Of a stretch of DNA of 64,000 nt, positions 3,462 to 60,121 are shown piece by piece. The notes beneath the pieces were generated by a model. That model did not search any database. It was not told the DNA's origin and saw nothing but the letters and a program-made list of their open reading frames with translations. The translations under genes were made by a program, and so were the position numbers. The stretch is from assembly GCA_018242585.1 (NCBI GenBank), contig JAFEBQ010000024.1, positions 1 to 64,000 on the forward strand, given 5' to 3'. The DNA is from Planctomycetota bacterium (GTDB lineage Bacteria > Planctomycetota > Planctomycetia > Pirellulales > PNKZ01). How positions within the stretch are numbered: the stretch's first letter is position 1; the number at the start of each line of letters is the position of its first letter.

Positions 3462-3702
3462 GTGCGCCGGTTACCCCTAGCGCAATCGCTACCTTCCCTA
3501 CCACCTGACCTCAGCGGGCTACTTTTTCCTCTCCTTCGCCCGCTTCCGCCCGGCGCGGACCTTTCGCGCGTGCTACGTTTCCCATGACGAGCAACTCTGT
3601 GTTGCGCCGCTGGACCTACACCGCCAGCCGCGCACCAAACGACTTGCCCGCGTGTACGTCCGGCCGGGACGGAAACCCTGGCCCCGCGAAGGATTCACGA
3701 CC

Positions 3703-6108
3703 ATGGTTGGTTGCAGGAAGCAAATCTGGCGCTCACTCGCCGTGCTGGCCCTCTGGGCGCCGGCATTGACGGGCTGTCAGACGTTTGATTGCTCGCCCCC
3801 CAAGATCGATCCGAGCGGCAATCGCCTCTTTCTGGCTCACGATCCCAAGCCGCCGAAGTTCAAGCCCGACCCCGGGCCGCCCAGCACCCTGTCCAATCAA
3901 GCCGGTGTGGCCGTCACGCCCAATCGCGTCGTCGCGCCGGTTGGTTCCGAAGTCGTCTTGAAAGCCGCCGTCTGCGGGCCCGATGGCCGGACCACGCGCA
4001 ACCAGCGCGTCGAATGGACGGTCGCGCCGGGCAGCGTCGGCTACATCGTCACCGTCGGCGATTACCACGGCACCGTCGACCAGTTGTGCGGCTACCTGAC
4101 CGGCGGCACCTCGGCCAATAAAGTCTCGAGCAACTACGCGGTCAACTCGACGTCGACCGGCGATTACTGTTTGAATCGCGGCACGCCGACCAAGGACGAC
4201 GATGTGCCGGTGCTGGCGGGCCAGGCCTGGATCACGGTCACCTCGCCCGTCGAAGGTCAAAGCATCGTCACGGCCGTCGCGCCGAAGGTGTATGGCTGGG
4301 ACCAGCGGCAACGCTCGTCGGTCATCGAATGGCTCGACGCCAAGTGGGACTTCCCGCCGCCAAGCGTCAATCCGGTCGGCGCGCGGCACACGTTCACCAC
4401 CAGCATCGTCCGTCATACGAACGGCGCGCCCCTGGCCGGCTGGCGCGTGCGCTACGAGATTCTCGATGGCCCGGCGGCGGGCTTTGCTCCGGACGGGGCC
4501 CAGATTGTCGAGGTGCCGACCGACGCGCTGGGCCAGGCGAGCATCGAAATGTTCCAAGTCCAGCCCGCCGAAGGGACCAATCGGGTCAACGTCCAGGTCA
4601 TCCGCTCGCCTGAGCTGAGCCGCGACGGCACTCGCTTGATCGTCGCCAACGCCACCACGCAAAAAATCTGGGGCGCTTCCGAGCTTTACGTTCGCACCAG
4701 CGGGCCGACCCAAGCCGCCGTCGGCGCGACGCTGAACTATAAAGTCGAAGTCCGCAACGCGGGCAGCCACACCATTCGCCAGGCGGTCGCATCGTTGCCC
4801 TTGCCGCAGGGCACGTCGCTGTTGAGCACGAACCCCGTGGCCAGTGTCACCGGCTCGAACCTGACCTGGGCGCTGGGCGACTTGGCCCCCGGCCAGATTC
4901 GTCCGCTGGAGGTGAGCCTGCGGGCCGATCGCTTCGGCACGGTCAACGCCTGTGTCACGGTCCAGACCGGCGAAGGAAAGAATGCGCAGGATTGCGCCAC
5001 CACGACCGTTGTTGCCCCGGCCCTGGCCGTGGTGGTGACGGCCGATCCCGAACAAGCGCCGGTCGGCACCGTGGTCACGTTCACCGCCACGGTCACCAAC
5101 CGCGGCACCGCGGCCGCCACCGACGTGCGCATTGTCGAGCTATACGACAGCGGCCTGCGTCACAACCAGACGGCGGCCAACCCCATCGAAGCCCCCGTCG
5201 GCACCTTGCAGCCGGGCGAGTCGAAGACGATTTCAGCCAAGTTCATCGTCATGGCCCCCGGCCAACTGTGCAACACGGTTGACGTGATCAGCGGCAACGG
5301 ACTGCGCGCTCAAGGGCGCGGCTGCGTCACCGGTGTGCCGTCGGCAAGTCCAGCGCCGATTGCGCCGGTGCCGACGACGCCGACCGATCCCAGCCTGAAG
5401 CCGGTGCTCGACATCAAGAAGGTCGGCCCCACGCGCCGCAACGTCGGCGACCAAGCGCAGTTTGACATCCTGGTCTCAAACACGGGGCGCGCGAAGGCGA
5501 CGAACCTGAAGATCACCGACAACAGCGACCTGTCGCTGATGGCGGTCGAAGCGTCGAATGGCCACGTTGACGTCGGCCGCGATCTGCAATGGACCATCGA
5601 CGAGCTGCCGCCGGGCAAGGGGATGAAGCTGTCGGTCACCTATCGCTGCACCGCGCCGGCTGATAACGCCTGTTCGCGCAATACGGTCGTTTGCACCGAA
5701 GGGGTTCGGGCCGACACGCAGGCTTGTGTCTCGATTCAACCGTCGCAAACGCCGCTGAGCGTGACGATCGACGATGGCGGCGACCCGCGCGCCGTCGGCA
5801 GCAGCATCGGCTACACCGTCCGCGTCACCAATGTCAGCCAGGTGGCCGATGCTCGGGTGCAACTGGCCGTGACCTTGTCCCCCGAGTTGATCCCTGCGCC
5901 GCTCGGCACGTCGGGTCCGACGAATGGCCAGATCGCCAATCAGACCGTCCAGTTCGAGCCGCTGGCGCAACTGGCCCCGCAGCAAACGGTCGTCTATCGC
6001 ATTCAAGCCCGGGCCGCCAAGGCGGGCGTGGCGCGATTGCAGGCGCAAATCACCAGCCAGAACATGGCCCAGCCGCTGGTGGCCGAAGAACCGACGACGG
6101 TGCAGTGA
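3703..6108 (+). CDS. Secreted lipoprotein with DUF11/CARDB-type repeats
   Basis: A probable surface or periplasmic lipoprotein of about 801 residues. I chose the ATG at 3703 because it places a signal peptide directly at the N-terminus with lipobox ALTGC and the lipidated Cys at residue 25; the frame is open further upstream. The middle part (about 45-320) contains Ig-like beta segments with many cysteines. Four DUF11-like beta-sandwich repeats follow, at about 326-425, 439-545, 566-680 and 684-795. Each has a pattern like VG..V.Y.V.V.N.G followed by L.PG. DUF11 proteins are usually extracellular or envelope adhesive/structural proteins, so an envelope role is inferred. No operon partner is evident. 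Confidence 0.85.
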   Translation: MVGCRKQIWRSLAVLALWAPALTGCQTFDCSPPKIDPSGNRLFLAHDPKPPKFKPDPGPPSTLSNQAGVAVTPNRVVAPVGSEVVLKAAVCGPDGRTTRNQRVEWTVAPGSVGYIVTVGDYHGTVDQLCGYLTGGTSANKVSSNYAVNSTSTGDYCLNRGTPTKDDDVPVLAGQAWITVTSPVEGQSIVTAVAPKVYGWDQRQRSSVIEWLDAKWDFPPPSVNPVGARHTFTTSIVRHTNGAPLAGWRVRYEILDGPAAGFAPDGAQIVEVPTDALGQASIEMFQVQPAEGTNRVNVQVIRSPELSRDGTRLIVANATTQKIWGASELYVRTSGPTQAAVGATLNYKVEVRNAGSHTIRQAVASLPLPQGTSLLSTNPVASVTGSNLTWALGDLAPGQIRPLEVSLRADRFGTVNACVTVQTGEGKNAQDCATTTVVAPALAVVVTADPEQAPVGTVVTFTATVTNRGTAAATDVRIVELYDSGLRHNQTAANPIEAPVGTLQPGESKTISAKFIVMAPGQLCNTVDVISGNGLRAQGRGCVTGVPSASPAPIAPVPTTPTDPSLKPVLDIKKVGPTRRNVGDQAQFDILVSNTGRAKATNLKITDNSDLSLMAVEASNGHVDVGRDLQWTIDELPPGKGMKLSVTYRCTAPADNACSRNTVVCTEGVRADTQACVSIQPSQTPLSVTIDDGGDPRAVGSSIGYTVRVTNVSQVADARVQLAVTLSPELIPAPLGTSGPTNGQIANQTVQFEPLAQLAPQQTVVYRIQARAAKAGVARLQAQITSQNMAQPLVAEEPTTVQ

Positions 6109-6172: not shown

Positions 6173-6283
6173 TTGTCAGTGGTCCGTTGTCAGTTGCACC
6201 CTGCTTCGCGCTACGTGATGAGTGTGAATCGCGAGCAATTTCTCCTGCAACGGACAACTGACTACCGACAACGGACGACTCAG
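6173..6283. repeat. Dispersed repeat family B, copy 1
   Basis: About 110 bp made of GTCAGTGGTCCGTTGTCAGT-type units on the left and the inverted form (CAACGGACAACTGAC) on the right. The same element recurs at 9488, 15364 and 23612, with a half copy at 60089. It ends at the stop codon of the prepilin peptidase-like gene. Confidence 0.8.
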
Positions 6284-7278
6284 TTCTCCTCTCCGCTTCC
6301 CCTTCGCGGCCTGAGAATCCAGGCGACGATGCCGCACGTGAAGACGGCCACCGCGCCGGCGGCCAGCGTGCGGTAATTCGCCTCGCCCCCCAGCCAGGGC
6401 CAGCGCTCGACGATCGTTTTCCAGTTGAACAGCCAGATGACCGTGGCCAGGAACAGCCAGCCGGTGTTGGGCATGAACTTCAGCGTCCGCACCCCGGCGC
6501 GGAACATCGCCGTCAGCATGACGAGCGCCATCGTCACCGCGGCCAGCGGACAGGCTGCTTGCCAGCCGAGTTGCGCCCCCACGGCCGCCAGCGCGACGAC
6601 CATCGTGTTGCGTCCGGCCAGTCGGCTGGGCCCCTGGCCTGTCCCCAAGCCGGCTAGCGCCCCAAGCGTCGCGCCGACCAGCAAGCCGGCCACGCCATCG
6701 AGCATGCCGACCATCGGCGTGCCGGCCTCGAGTGCGACCCTGGCGTTATGAATCGGTGGCGTGATCGGGTGAATCGCCGGCCAGAACGCGCCGAGCGGCA
6801 CCGCAATTGCCAGCCACACCAGCACCATTCGCCACGGCAGCGCAAAGCCGTCGCGCTCGACCAGCATCACGACCAGCAGGCCACACACCAGCAGCAGGTG
6901 ATTGCCATAGATTTGCCACGCGGCCGGTATTGTCCACACTTCACCAGGCAAGAATCGACCAAGCTGTAATGGCTCGGCCCAGCCGAGCGCGGCGAACGCG
7001 ACGGCACACGCCAACTCGACGGCCGGGTAGCGCCAGGCAATCGACTGGCCACAGGCGCGACACCGCCCGCGCAGCAAGAGCCAGCCAATGATCGGCAGAT
7101 TGTCCCGCGTCTTGATCCGGGTGCCGCAGCGCGGGCAAGCCGACGGAGGCCAGGCAATGCTCAGCCCGGCCGGCATCCGGTACACCACCACGTTCAGGAA
7201 GCTGCCGATGATCGCTCCTTGCAGGAACAAGAGCGGCAACCAGAACGACCAAGGCAACTGGGCGAGCGAATAGAGCAT
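6280..7278 (-). CDS. Prepilin peptidase (A24)-like membrane protein, catalytic Asp residues missing
   Basis: The N-terminal half is clearly of the PilD/GspO family, which cleaves and N-methylates type IV prepilins at the inner membrane. It has GSFLNVVVYRMP (about 25-36) and two zinc-type CxxC pairs, CPRC at 48-51 and CRAC at 73-76. Multiple membrane helices follow. The peptidase half looks degenerate. The first catalytic Asp, normally 7 residues before LP, aligns with Glu141 (VERDGFALP). The GxGD motif aligns with AGRNT (221-225), before a typical GAQLGW segment. The 332-residue form starting at 7278 is preferred, because the upstream in-frame extension translates a dispersed repeat (7323-7436). 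It may be inactive or divergent. No pilin genes are nearby. Confidence 0.8.
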   Translation of the reverse strand: MLYSLAQLPWSFWLPLLFLQGAIIGSFLNVVVYRMPAGLSIAWPPSACPRCGTRIKTRDNLPIIGWLLLRGRCRACGQSIAWRYPAVELACAVAFAALGWAEPLQLGRFLPGEVWTIPAAWQIYGNHLLLVCGLLVVMLVERDGFALPWRMVLVWLAIAVPLGAFWPAIHPITPPIHNARVALEAGTPMVGMLDGVAGLLVGATLGALAGLGTGQGPSRLAGRNTMVVALAAVGAQLGWQAACPLAAVTMALVMLTAMFRAGVRTLKFMPNTGWLFLATVIWLFNWKTIVERWPWLGGEANYRTLAAGAVAVFTCGIVAWILRPRRGSGEEN

Positions 7279-7503: not shown

Positions 7504-9333
7504 TCAAATGATCCCGTGCAGGGGACCGCCGTGGACGGCCAGCGACTCGATCCGCCCGACCACCGCCGGATCGTCTTCGAGCGGCGGAGCGTGGTGCGGC
7601 TTGATCCGCGCGTCGATCACCAATGCCCCGCGGCAACCCCAGTGCTTGTGCTCGGTGAACGACTCGATGCCGTGGATGTCGACCGCCGGGTTCGAGCGCG
7701 TGAACACCACCCACAACCAGTTCGACAGGTTCCGCGCCGCGAACTCGGCATTGTCCACCAACACGACGAGTGGGAACCGGTTGATCGCCGAGCCGGCGTG
7801 GAATGCCGCGCAGAACGCTTCGGCCTGGGCGTGCCCCCCCTCGGCCGTGTACGCCGGCGCCGCAATGCACAGCACACCGGGGAGCGCCAACCGCGCGTCG
7901 GCAAAGCCGGCCGGCAGGGAAAGCTCGCCGTCGATCCGCTCGGGCAGCTCGCGCCGCGGCGGGCCGGCGGCGGCGATCACAACCTTGGAACCGGCGTTCA
8001 GTGACGAGCCGCTGTAGTCGAGCGTGTCGATCGTGGTGCAGGTCTGAAAATGCAGATCGTGCGTCCAGTCGACGCGCGCCAGCAGGTGTCGCAAGAACCG
8101 GGCCGGATCGTGCAAGTCGAGCGTCGGGTCGTCGTCGCCGTTGACAATCAGCAGGTACTTGGCCAGCGACAGTTGCCCCTGCCCCAGCAGCGCATTGGCC
8201 TGGGTCAACAACTCCTGCGGCCGCGCGGTCGGCAAATAGGGCGTGTAGCGTTCGCTGCCGATCACCAGCAGCAGCGGATGGACGCCGGCGGCGTCGACGG
8301 CATGAATCGCGCGCACGCCCGGCACCAGTGTCGGCACGACCGGGCCGGTCAGCTCGTGAATGAACTCGCCGAAGGTGGTGTCCTCTTGCGGCGGCCGGCC
8401 GACCGACGTGAAAGGCCAGATCGCCCCCGAGCGGTGCGTCACCCGATCGACGCGCAGCACGGGGAAGTCGTGAGCCAGCGAATAGTAGCCCAAGTGATCG
8501 CCGAACGGTCCCTCGGGCAAGAGCGTCTCTTCAACCGTGCCCGAGATACAAAAGTCGGCGTCGGCCACGACGGCGGGTCCGTTGGCCTGTTTCACCAATC
8601 GCACGCGCGCGCCGGCCAGCGCGCCGGCAAAGCTGAGTTCGCTTAAACCCTCGGGCAGCGGCATGACCGCGGCAATGGCCAAGGCCGGCGGGCCGCCGAC
8701 CAGGACGTTCACGCGCAGCGGCTGGCCGCGCCGCCGCGCTGCGGTGTGATGAACGCCGATGCCGCGATGAATCTGATAGTGCAGGCCGATGTGCCGATCG
8801 GGCGCGTACTGATTGCCGGCCAGTTGCACGCGATACATCCCCAGGTTCGACCGTCGCCAGCCCGGCGCGTCGGGGTCTTCGGTATAAACCTCGGGCAAGG
8901 TGACGAACGGCCCGCCGTCGCGCGGCCACGAGACAAGCTGCGGCAGCTTGCTGATCGTGGTCGCGTGCTTCAGGACCGGCCCGCGCGACACATAGCGCGG
9001 CAACATCCGCCACGCGGCCGGCAGCGCGCTGAGGGCCTTGGTCGGGCTGCGTAGCGCGGCGCCGGGGTCGACTTTCATCGCGACCAGTTGTTGCACGCCA
9101 GCCAGCGTGTGGCGAAACAGATAGCGCAGACGCGCCAGGCTGCCGAACAAATTGCAGACCATGGGGAACTGGCAGCCGCGGACGTTTTCGAGCAGCAAGG
9201 CCGGCCCGCCGGCGGCATAGACGCGGCGTTGCAGATAGGCGGCTTCGAGCCGCGGATCGATCTCAGCCGCGACCCGCCGCAAATGCCCGCCACGCTCCAG
9301 ATCATCGACAGCGCTGCGCAAGCTAGGGTGCAT
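7504..9333 (-). CDS. UbiD-family prenylated-FMN-dependent decarboxylase
   Basis: UbiD enzymes reversibly decarboxylate aromatic or alpha,beta-unsaturated acids in the cytoplasm, using prenylated FMN made by UbiX. The 609-residue protein has the family hallmarks. LLLENVRGCQFPMVCNLFGS lies near 46-65 and NLGMYRVQL near 165, which holds the catalytic-region Arg. PEGPFGDHLGYY near residue 272 carries the acidic active-site pair, and VDWTHDLHFQT is in the C-terminal part. It is longer than E. coli UbiD (about 497), as in many menaquinone-type or uncharacterised members. No ubiX homologue is in the window. The substrate cannot be told from the sequence; quinone biosynthesis is the usual guess. Confidence 0.92.
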   Translation of the reverse strand: MHPSLRSAVDDLERGGHLRRVAAEIDPRLEAAYLQRRVYAAGGPALLLENVRGCQFPMVCNLFGSLARLRYLFRHTLAGVQQLVAMKVDPGAALRSPTKALSALPAAWRMLPRYVSRGPVLKHATTISKLPQLVSWPRDGGPFVTLPEVYTEDPDAPGWRRSNLGMYRVQLAGNQYAPDRHIGLHYQIHRGIGVHHTAARRRGQPLRVNVLVGGPPALAIAAVMPLPEGLSELSFAGALAGARVRLVKQANGPAVVADADFCISGTVEETLLPEGPFGDHLGYYSLAHDFPVLRVDRVTHRSGAIWPFTSVGRPPQEDTTFGEFIHELTGPVVPTLVPGVRAIHAVDAAGVHPLLLVIGSERYTPYLPTARPQELLTQANALLGQGQLSLAKYLLIVNGDDDPTLDLHDPARFLRHLLARVDWTHDLHFQTCTTIDTLDYSGSSLNAGSKVVIAAAGPPRRELPERIDGELSLPAGFADARLALPGVLCIAAPAYTAEGGHAQAEAFCAAFHAGSAINRFPLVVLVDNAEFAARNLSNWLWVVFTRSNPAVDIHGIESFTEHKHWGCRGALVIDARIKPHHAPPLEDDPAVVGRIESLAVHGGPLHGII

Positions 9334-9487: not shown

Positions 9488-9598
9488 TTGTCAGTTGTCC
9501 GTCGTCCGTGGTCAGTTGCTGGGGAATAGCTAGCGATGAACCATCGGCGATCGGCCCGCAGCAATAGGCAACGGACAACTGACCACGGACAACGGACC
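9488..9598. repeat. Dispersed repeat family B, copy 2
   Basis: The left part holds TCAGTTGTCCGTCGTCCGTG and the right part the inverted form (CAACGGACAACTGACCACGG). It occupies most of the divergent gap between ubiD and hldD, so any promoter for hldD would lie in or next to it. Confidence 0.8.
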
Positions 9599-10700: not shown

Positions 10701-11255
10701 CTACCGTTCCCCAGTCGTCGCTTGCATGTCTCCTATCGCAACATTCGCGCCCCAATTGAGAGAATACGCGCCTTGTTTGACCCATTTGTGAAACGATGAA
10801 TGAGGCCAATCACGCGGGTTCGTCGCAAGTCGGTGCTTGACCGGATTGAAGTGGATGTAATCGGCGTGCCGCTCGAAATCCTCCTCATCCACGATCGTGT
10901 GCTCCCAAAAACGCTTTTGCCACACGCCTCGTTGTCGTCGCTGTTGCCATGACTCGCTCACTTCTGCGACTAACCCGCCGGCTTGTAGCCAGCGTTTGGT
11001 GAACTCCTTCTTGATCCACGCCCAACGGCGCGAATAGTCCAAATCTTGCGGCGGCAAGGTCCAGATCGTGTGCAAATGATCCGGGAGTAAAACGATTGCT
11101 TCCGTTTTGAACGTCCATTGGCCCTTGCATTCGCGCATCACCGAGCCGAGGATCGTTCGGGCAGTTTTGTCCAGGAGAATGCGCCGGCGTCGATAGGTGA
11201 CGACCGTGAAGAAATACGTGCCGCCCGGAACGAAGTTGCGACGGTAATTGGGCAT
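10701..11255 (-). CDS. REP-associated tyrosine transposase (RAYT, TnpA_REP type)
   Basis: This is a Y1-family single-strand DNA transposase of the HUH class, which cuts and joins REP palindromes. The 184 residues include the N-terminal YFFTVVTYRRR segment, the metal-binding HxH as HLH at 60-62 (LLPDHLH), and catalytic Tyr133 in ADYIHFNPVKHRL. W/R-rich RAYT features (GVWQKRFWEH, 110-119) are present. It looks intact. It is bracketed at about 35 and 105 bp by inverted 25-bp units that each contain a 17-bp palindrome, the expected arrangement for a RAYT and its REP substrates. RAYT genes are usually single-copy and vertically kept in a lineage; REP dissemination is the known family role. Confidence 0.95.
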   Translation of the reverse strand: MPNYRRNFVPGGTYFFTVVTYRRRRILLDKTARTILGSVMRECKGQWTFKTEAIVLLPDHLHTIWTLPPQDLDYSRRWAWIKKEFTKRWLQAGGLVAEVSESWQQRRQRGVWQKRFWEHTIVDEEDFERHADYIHFNPVKHRLATNPRDWPHSSFHKWVKQGAYSLNWGANVAIGDMQATTGER

Positions 11256-15363: not shown

Positions 15364-15475
15364 TGTCCGTTGTCAGTGGTCCGTTGTCAGTTGCATGTTG
15401 CTTCGCGCTCCGTGAAGAACGCACGCAATCAAACGCTTCCCCAACAACTGACTACTGACAACGGACAACTGACTA
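15364..15475. repeat. Dispersed repeat family B, copy 3
   Basis: GTCCGTTGTCAGTGGTCCG units on the left and the inverted ACTGACAACGGACAACTGAC on the right, with CTTCGCGCTCCGTGAAG between. The right end contains the stop codon (CTA at 15473-15475 on the plus strand) of the epimerase-like gene, so the element seems to have inserted at the gene's very end. Confidence 0.8.
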
Positions 15476-23611: not shown

Positions 23612-23744
23612 GTCAGTTGTCCGTTGTCAGTAGTCAGTTGTGGGGGAAGCGTTTGATGGCATGCGATCTTCACTGAGCGCGAAGCAAAGTGCAACTGACG
23701 ACGGACAACGGACCACTAACAATTCGCAACTGACAACTGACTAA
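23612..23744. repeat. Dispersed repeat family B, copy 4
   Basis: The longest copy, about 133 bp, with TCAGTTGTCCGTTGTCAGTA at the left and inverted CAACTGACAACTGAC-like units at the right. It separates the PVC cytochrome gene from the amidohydrolase pair by filling almost the whole gap. Confidence 0.8.
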
Positions 23745-59740: not shown

Positions 59741-60121
59741 AGTGACAATCTCCAGCGAACCAGAGCCTGAGAAATCTGTTCCGATAAGGATCGCGCAGCG
59801 ACTGCACAACAAGGCGCAAAGTCCTTCGCCCTGGGCGGTAGCGCCCATCCCTCTTAGCCTAACTACGAACCTGAGGAAAGCAACGTATTTCGCCCCGTCG
59901 AAACACCGGGCAAGCGACAAAAGTAGCGCCATTACCGGCATTTCGGCCGTTTGGCGAGGCATCCCCCTCCCCTCGGTCCTAGGTTAGATGTCGGCCAGCC
60001 GGCGAAAGTTCCGTAATAAAGCGGCTAAATCGCCAGCGAACCGCCCGCCGAACCCAACCCCCAGAACCCATTACCAGCCAATCGCTTACAACGGACAATG
60101 GACCACTGACAACTGGCCGGT
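59741..60121. other. Intergenic region with partial repeat
   Basis: The 5' region of the GGM protein gene and the 3' flank of DUF1501. It contains a half copy of family B (60089-60116, ACAACGGACAATGGACCACTG...). No gene is seen. Confidence 0.5.
60089..60116. repeat. Repeat family B, half copy
   Basis: ACAACGGACAATGGACCACT followed by GACAACTG, i.e. the right half only of the family B element, next to the DUF1501 stop codon. Confidence 0.65.

Follow-up and report, generated by a model that had tools for sequence, protein, structure and literature searches.

PilD is the textbook case of one protein that does two jobs on prepilins. In a study of PilD (PMC3584216), removal of zinc abolishes methylation and leaves cleavage unaffected; methylation needs the four-cysteine domain, and a glycine and a basic amino acid next to the third cysteine contribute to it. 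Two reviews treat this N-domain as the methylase; one holds the assignment to be very likely, with formal demonstration lacking (PMC4471445), and the other says that even 40 years on it is a mystery what pilin methylation is for (PMC10191384). Prepilin peptidases were left out of a phylogeny of type IV filaments because they are exchangeable between systems and give a poorly supported tree (PMC6668835). In the open-access literature, outside which most subscription journals fall, we found no description of a stand-alone A24_N protein or of a split PilD.

Here we describe a planctomycete gene whose product appears to be one half of such an enzyme. The window (the whole stretch of DNA analysed, 64,000 nucleotides) encodes a protein that we call M, for methylase-half protein; P denotes its sister peptidase, and G000 is the window's own genome.

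Results

Zinc motifs and catalytic residues of M

In a Pfam search M matched A24_N (PF06750) over the complete domain, with 114.5 bits against a cut-off of 23, and PF01478 (Peptidase_A24) went unmatched in M even with E <= 1; an NCBIfam search with M added nothing relevant. The initial annotation had described a prepilin peptidase-like protein that keeps the zinc/methylase half of the fold, with CPRC at residues 48-51 and CRAC at 73-76, and both the domain match and the motif positions bear this out (Table 1). In the position check GSFLNVVVYRMP begins at M residue 25.

Table 1. Features of the M locus, given as window positions; residue numbers are those of M
Feature	Window positions	Strand	Remarks
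DUF11-repeat protein	3652-6108	opposite to M	large; convergent with M
M gene (methylase-half protein)	6280..7278	minus	ATG at 7278; 332 aa + stop
GRNT, residues 222-225, at the GxGD site	6604..6615	minus	AGRNT begins at 221
Glu141, at the first catalytic Asp site	6856..6858	minus	family alignment
A24_N (PF06750), residues 20-100	6979..7221	minus	zinc loop between two membrane helices
GRCRAC, residues 71-76	7051..7068	minus	Gly71, basic 72, second zinc pair (CRAC from 73)
CPRC, residues 48-51	7126..7137	minus	first zinc pair; both Cys in 57/57 M, 0/52 P
UbiD-family decarboxylase	7504..9333	minus	directly upstream of M; beside M in 21 order-sample genomes
IS200-like Y1 transposase	10704-11255		
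Repeat clusters of CCGTTGTCAGTTG	6184-6274, 9506-9595, 15367-15471, 23614-23739, 60089-60115		

For comparison we used 57 M proteins, 54 of them from 53 genomes of the order sample (one genome has two) and three from named planctomycete MAGs, together with 54 P proteins and eight intact two-domain proteins, two of which (L040 and L042) have GxAD in place of GxGD. All four cysteines of the CxxC...CxxC zinc motif are kept in every one of the aligned M proteins, and the positions invariant among them are C48, C51, C73, C76, G71, N60, Y84, R34, P36, P62 and E88. Position 72 holds Arg in 44 proteins, Lys in 11, His in one and Gln in one, and is thus basic in 56/57. M itself has the glycine and the basic residue beside the third cysteine, for which a methyltransferase role is taken from the PilD work (PMC3584216).

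At the site of the first catalytic Asp, which is Asp in 52/52 unbroken sister peptidases P and in 8/8 two-domain enzymes, M has Glu141, and the same column across the 57 M proteins is occupied by E (14), A (14), D (6), R (6), V (5), four gaps and others. G222-R-N-T225 aligns under GxGD, and Thr225 is therefore the second catalytic Asp position. The position check and the family alignment agree with the earlier assignment of Glu141 and AGRNT to these two sites. To the question raised there, whether the Glu, Asn and Thr replacements are themselves conserved, the answer is negative: the first-Asp column is varied, and it is the loss of the Asp pair that is conserved. The PF01478 domain, the first Asp and the GxGD motif, by which a peptidase of family A24 is recognised, are all missing from M. 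M belongs to the A24_N domain family and, by the defining catalytic residues of peptidase family A24, stands outside the latter.

An AlphaFold2 model of M, made with an alignment of 11 sequences, was helical and of moderate confidence (pLDDT 74.8, pTM 0.74), with modelled helices at residues 10-33 and 83-101. When this moderate-confidence model was given to Foldseek, no match at E <= 0.001 was returned. Matches from VIA-align (best Z 6.2, for transporters such as Patched and AcrB; gamma-secretase, 3.7) were set aside as common helical packing; FlaK was not among the VIA-align matches listed, and a PDB sequence search with M gave nothing relevant.

The UbiD-family gene upstream of M has TIGR03701 as its best NCBIfam model, at 338 bits and under the cut-off of 496; we treat it as a syntenic marker and do not think it part of the mechanism discussed below. 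On the other side of M lies a convergent gene for a DUF11-repeat protein. Copies and variants of a short repeat, CCGTTGTCAGTTG, are clustered on both strands (at up to two mismatches there are 22 matches, against 1.5 expected), and since the window also holds an IS200-like Y1 transposase, repeats and transposase may possibly form a REP/RAYT-type system.

The sister peptidase and candidate substrates

Searching the window's own genome with PF01478 gave four matches in three proteins, on contigs C32, C2 and C10 only. Two of the proteins are short and TadV/CpaA-like, with GxGD intact; the third, of PilD type, is P (G000:C10:81463-82482, 450 aa), which is encoded on another contig than M, has the motif REAMGFGDVT and retains the first Asp. 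Its A24_N scores only about 28-31 bits, and the cysteines are gone. The genome thus does encode another, intact prepilin peptidase, and the suggestion in the initial annotation that M may have lost proteolysis and kept another role is strengthened, the loss of the Asp pair being a family trait and an intact peptidase being predicted elsewhere in the genome.

The N-domain of P was counted in 52 of the 54 P proteins, L122 and L137 being peptidases ended by contig ends and excluded. Each of the four cysteines is found in 0/52, as are N60 (0/52) and Y84 (0/52), with G71 in 6/52 and P36 in 3/52. P62, W66 and E88 are retained in 48/52, and from this pattern the N-domain residues that P keeps look structural. 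At position 72, Glu is found in 33/54 P rows. GxGD is present in 54/54 P proteins and the first Asp in 52/52 where it is readable. The cysteines are kept in M and lost in P, and the Asp pair the reverse; each sister has therefore lost what the other keeps. As candidate substrates, the window genome has ten N_methyl matches over the cut-off, and a simple pattern, a start with Glu at +5, was found in eight distinct N_methyl matches; there are also six PF07596 (DUF1559-type) matches.

M and P in the order, the class and the phylum

A homologue of M was found in 54 of the 57 genomes of the order sample, our own included, that of G011 being a two-domain enzyme. The protein is thus more than a chance occurrence in a single genome. 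M and P, with residues read, occur together in 51/57; in G011, which has no M, one intact two-domain enzyme (L158) is present. P was found without M in G032, G033 and G044, and M without P in G016 and G043; these five assemblies are 97, 81, 94, 94 and 82% complete, respectively, and the one-sided genomes possibly reflect assembly gaps. The peptidase half of the G011 enzyme (L158:6103-7395) falls among the order's Cys-less peptidases, with weak support, and L158 is possibly a re-fusion or a late survivor.

Across the class, 118 genomes were surveyed with PF06750 matches and a profile of the PilD-type peptidase half, and proteins were classed by position, so that the class-wide M and P calls are positional, with residues read in a fetched subset. 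A two-domain enzyme only was found in 48 genomes, a two-domain enzyme plus M in 10, a two-domain enzyme plus a peptidase without intact A24_N in seven, all three in seven, a peptidase without intact A24_N plus M and no two-domain enzyme in 45, and neither match in one. M is thus present in 45/45 class genomes that have a peptidase but no two-domain enzyme, versus 17/72 of those that have one (Fisher p 1.4e-18, with the relatedness of the genomes uncorrected). Since those 17 genomes keep the two-domain enzyme, M is not only a replacement.

In the other classes of the phylum the two-domain arrangement, with the peptidase downstream of A24_N, was found by position in 107 of the 115 genomes with an A24_N match, and GxGD in 37 of the 40 proteins read, the remaining three ending at contig or stretch ends. 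There are eight exceptions outside the class: G131, G173, G060, G074 and G128 are contig ends or breaks, and G092 is ambiguous; G073 has a GEGD motif of its own. A clear split is seen in G069, where one protein of 279 aa has A24_N but no Asp motifs and another, of 273 aa, is a peptidase lacking A24_N; in G098, a relative of G069, a peptidase of this kind accompanies an enzyme that is intact by position.

Two further arrangements were noted in the survey. In G196 (L283:1215-4001) an M-type domain follows a transglutaminase core (PF01841) within what reads as a single open frame, and G258 has a frame of similar length. In family f21, G080 (L277) and G143 (L278) have a second, shorter PilD-type peptidase without A24_N beside the intact enzyme.

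Repeated decay of the methylase half in peptidases

Within the class, the methylase half of the peptidase seems to have decayed on several occasions. In family f91, the peptidase of G188 is without Cys pairs and M is present, and its relatives have intact enzymes. In f21, Cys pairs are absent from the peptidases of G203, G259, G276, G104 and G218 and retained in G242 and G252, whose peptidases have lost other invariant residues; in f93, the peptidases of G186, G190 and G193 are partly decayed with the pairs retained. One of the two peptidases in G104, and one of the two in G125, was counted as decayed yet keeps its CxxC pairs. Such Cys-keeping peptidases have changes elsewhere among the invariant positions (Gly71 or Tyr84, for example) and might still methylate.

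Seven changes are needed to explain the decayed state on a tree built from 90 peptidase halves, and at least three of them are forced by well-supported (starred) branches. M is in the genome for 61/63 decayed peptidases versus 6/20 intact ones. An independent-pairs test gave three pairs on starred branches, too few for significance, with averages of 2.2 for the link, 0.0 against it and 0.8 showing no difference. The N-domain tree (124 rows, 109 columns; L255 is absent, having been overlooked by the motif search) is poorly resolved and has seven label changes versus about 41 in shuffles. These mixed states would fit a duplication followed by the loss of one half in each copy, an order of events that we infer.

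Variation in the C-terminal half of M

The distance from the GSFLN motif to the stop ranges from 80 to 373 residues among M proteins, and 47 of the 57 keep at least 240 residues from the motif onward, for which reason we think that the dead peptidase half of most M proteins probably still does something. The mean frequency of the top residue in M is 0.38 in the C-terminal half versus 0.66 in the N-domain.

All or most of the peptidase half is gone in 8/57 M proteins. M consists of A24_N only in the three f7 genomes read (G012, G029 and G051) and in G047, of another family; M with a short stretch after A24_N was found in four genomes of f3, and such a stretch is kept in L064, L061, L156 and L032. 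In some species the open frames of M go down to about 130 aa. The UbiD-family gene that neighbours full-length M also adjoins six of the eight short forms, which by their position are therefore the same gene. A search for leftover C-terminal coding sequence was negative for the shortest forms, L031, L072 and L063; for L157 it gave one weak match (E 0.005), which falls within the UbiD gene upstream and was put down to chance. Apart from that match no shifted remnant was seen, and frameshift was rejected as the general cause of the short forms. GLGD in L032 and GPGD in L053 were judged to lie off the active-site column.

Discussion

We read M as a stand-alone methyltransferase because zinc in PilD serves pilin methylation and not cleavage (PMC3584216). 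Our preferred explanation, which the sequences make fairly probable, is that M is a prepilin N-methyltransferase that was split from a two-domain enzyme and works with a separate peptidase. Five lines of evidence support such a split: the two sisters have lost complementary residues, M is conserved, M and P co-occur, the arrangement has arisen more than once, and there are forms with the N-domain only. We propose that an ancestral two-domain enzyme was duplicated, and that one copy would have lost the peptidase and then the other the methylase. Prepilins would be cut by P at the cytoplasmic face of the membrane, and M, acting in trans, would then methylate the new pilin N-terminus with S-adenosylmethionine as the donor.

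A wider claim, on which we find the case evenly balanced, is that A24_N alone (roughly 80-100 residues that comprise the zinc loop and two membrane helices) may be a complete prepilin N-methyltransferase, and that the Planctomycetes may repeatedly have split the enzyme into a peptidase and a methyltransferase acting in sequence on the same pilins, with selection keeping an intact methylase in nearly every genome.

The alternative that survives best, unlikely though we judge it, is that M is inactive alone and docks on the Cys-less peptidase, where its zinc loop rebuilds the two-domain enzyme. The co-occurrence of M and P in the order would suit such a complex, the C-terminal membrane half of most M proteins could be the docking surface, and the residues that P retains (P62, W66 and E88) belong to the N-domain fold. 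However, that C-terminal half is wholly absent in G012, G029, G051 and G047, so that A24_N need not carry it, and M is present beside intact two-domain enzymes too. The docking alternative overlaps with the stand-alone methyltransferase, and the sole difference between them is whether contact is needed.

It is improbable that M is a zinc membrane protein that has taken on a new substrate, such as another N-terminus or a part in envelope assembly, and has lost its pilin role. The position of the gene would accord with this, as M is not beside pilus genes here and its steady neighbour is the UbiD-family gene; so would the transglutaminase arrangement of G196 and the presence of M in some genomes that keep the two-domain enzyme. 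Against it, the presence of M goes along with decay of the peptidase's methylase half, as would not be expected if M had a free new role, and M keeps every position that is tied to methylation in PilD.

We give very little credence to M still being a peptidase that uses other acidic residues. Asp143 is acidic in 0.96 of the 47 full-length M proteins, and the Glu141 column is acidic in some; but Asp143 is found in intact enzymes as well, where it accompanies the first catalytic Asp and is additional to it (8/8 two-domain proteins, 46/54 P rows). It is the sole strongly conserved acidic column of the C-terminal half, and the alignment of full-length M contains no conserved acidic pair there; moreover, several homologues are without that half altogether and the genome has an intact peptidase. 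The initial annotation had named structural modelling that places other conserved acidic residues in the active site as what would overturn its reading, and no such pair emerged from the alignment. That M is merely a decaying gene without function is scarcely credible, since for all the variability of its C-terminal half it has open frames in 53 order-sample genomes and over ten invariant residues.

If M is indeed a methyltransferase separated from its peptidase, then separate expression and deletion of methylase and peptidase could test both the identity of the methylase and the purpose of methylation, and with the natural split there would be no need for point mutants, which may upset the second activity as well. 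Comparing M with P also points to residues of interest, namely S26, R34, P36, N60, G71, Y84 and the four cysteines.

Comparison with known systems

M resembles PilD/GspO (A24_N plus Peptidase_A24) in its four-Cys A24_N and in the glycine and basic residue beside the third cysteine; it differs from them in being without both catalytic Asp residues and PF01478, the peptidase being a separate gene. The Cys-less PilD-like peptidases, here P, come from the same two-domain ancestor as M, but in P the Asp pair survives and the zinc residues are gone, so that M is its mirror image. XpsO is another Cys-less PilD-like peptidase. The archaeal FlaK/PibD enzymes belong to the same peptidase superfamily as the lost half of M, and PibD is not known to carry an A24_N domain. 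FlaK differs from M in having the peptidase domain only, with no A24_N, as a review has it (PMC10191384). TadV/CpaA is, like M, a natural single-function relative of PilD, but it represents the opposite half: TadV has the peptidase and is without the methylase domain (PMC10191384), whereas M has A24_N and is without the Asp pair.
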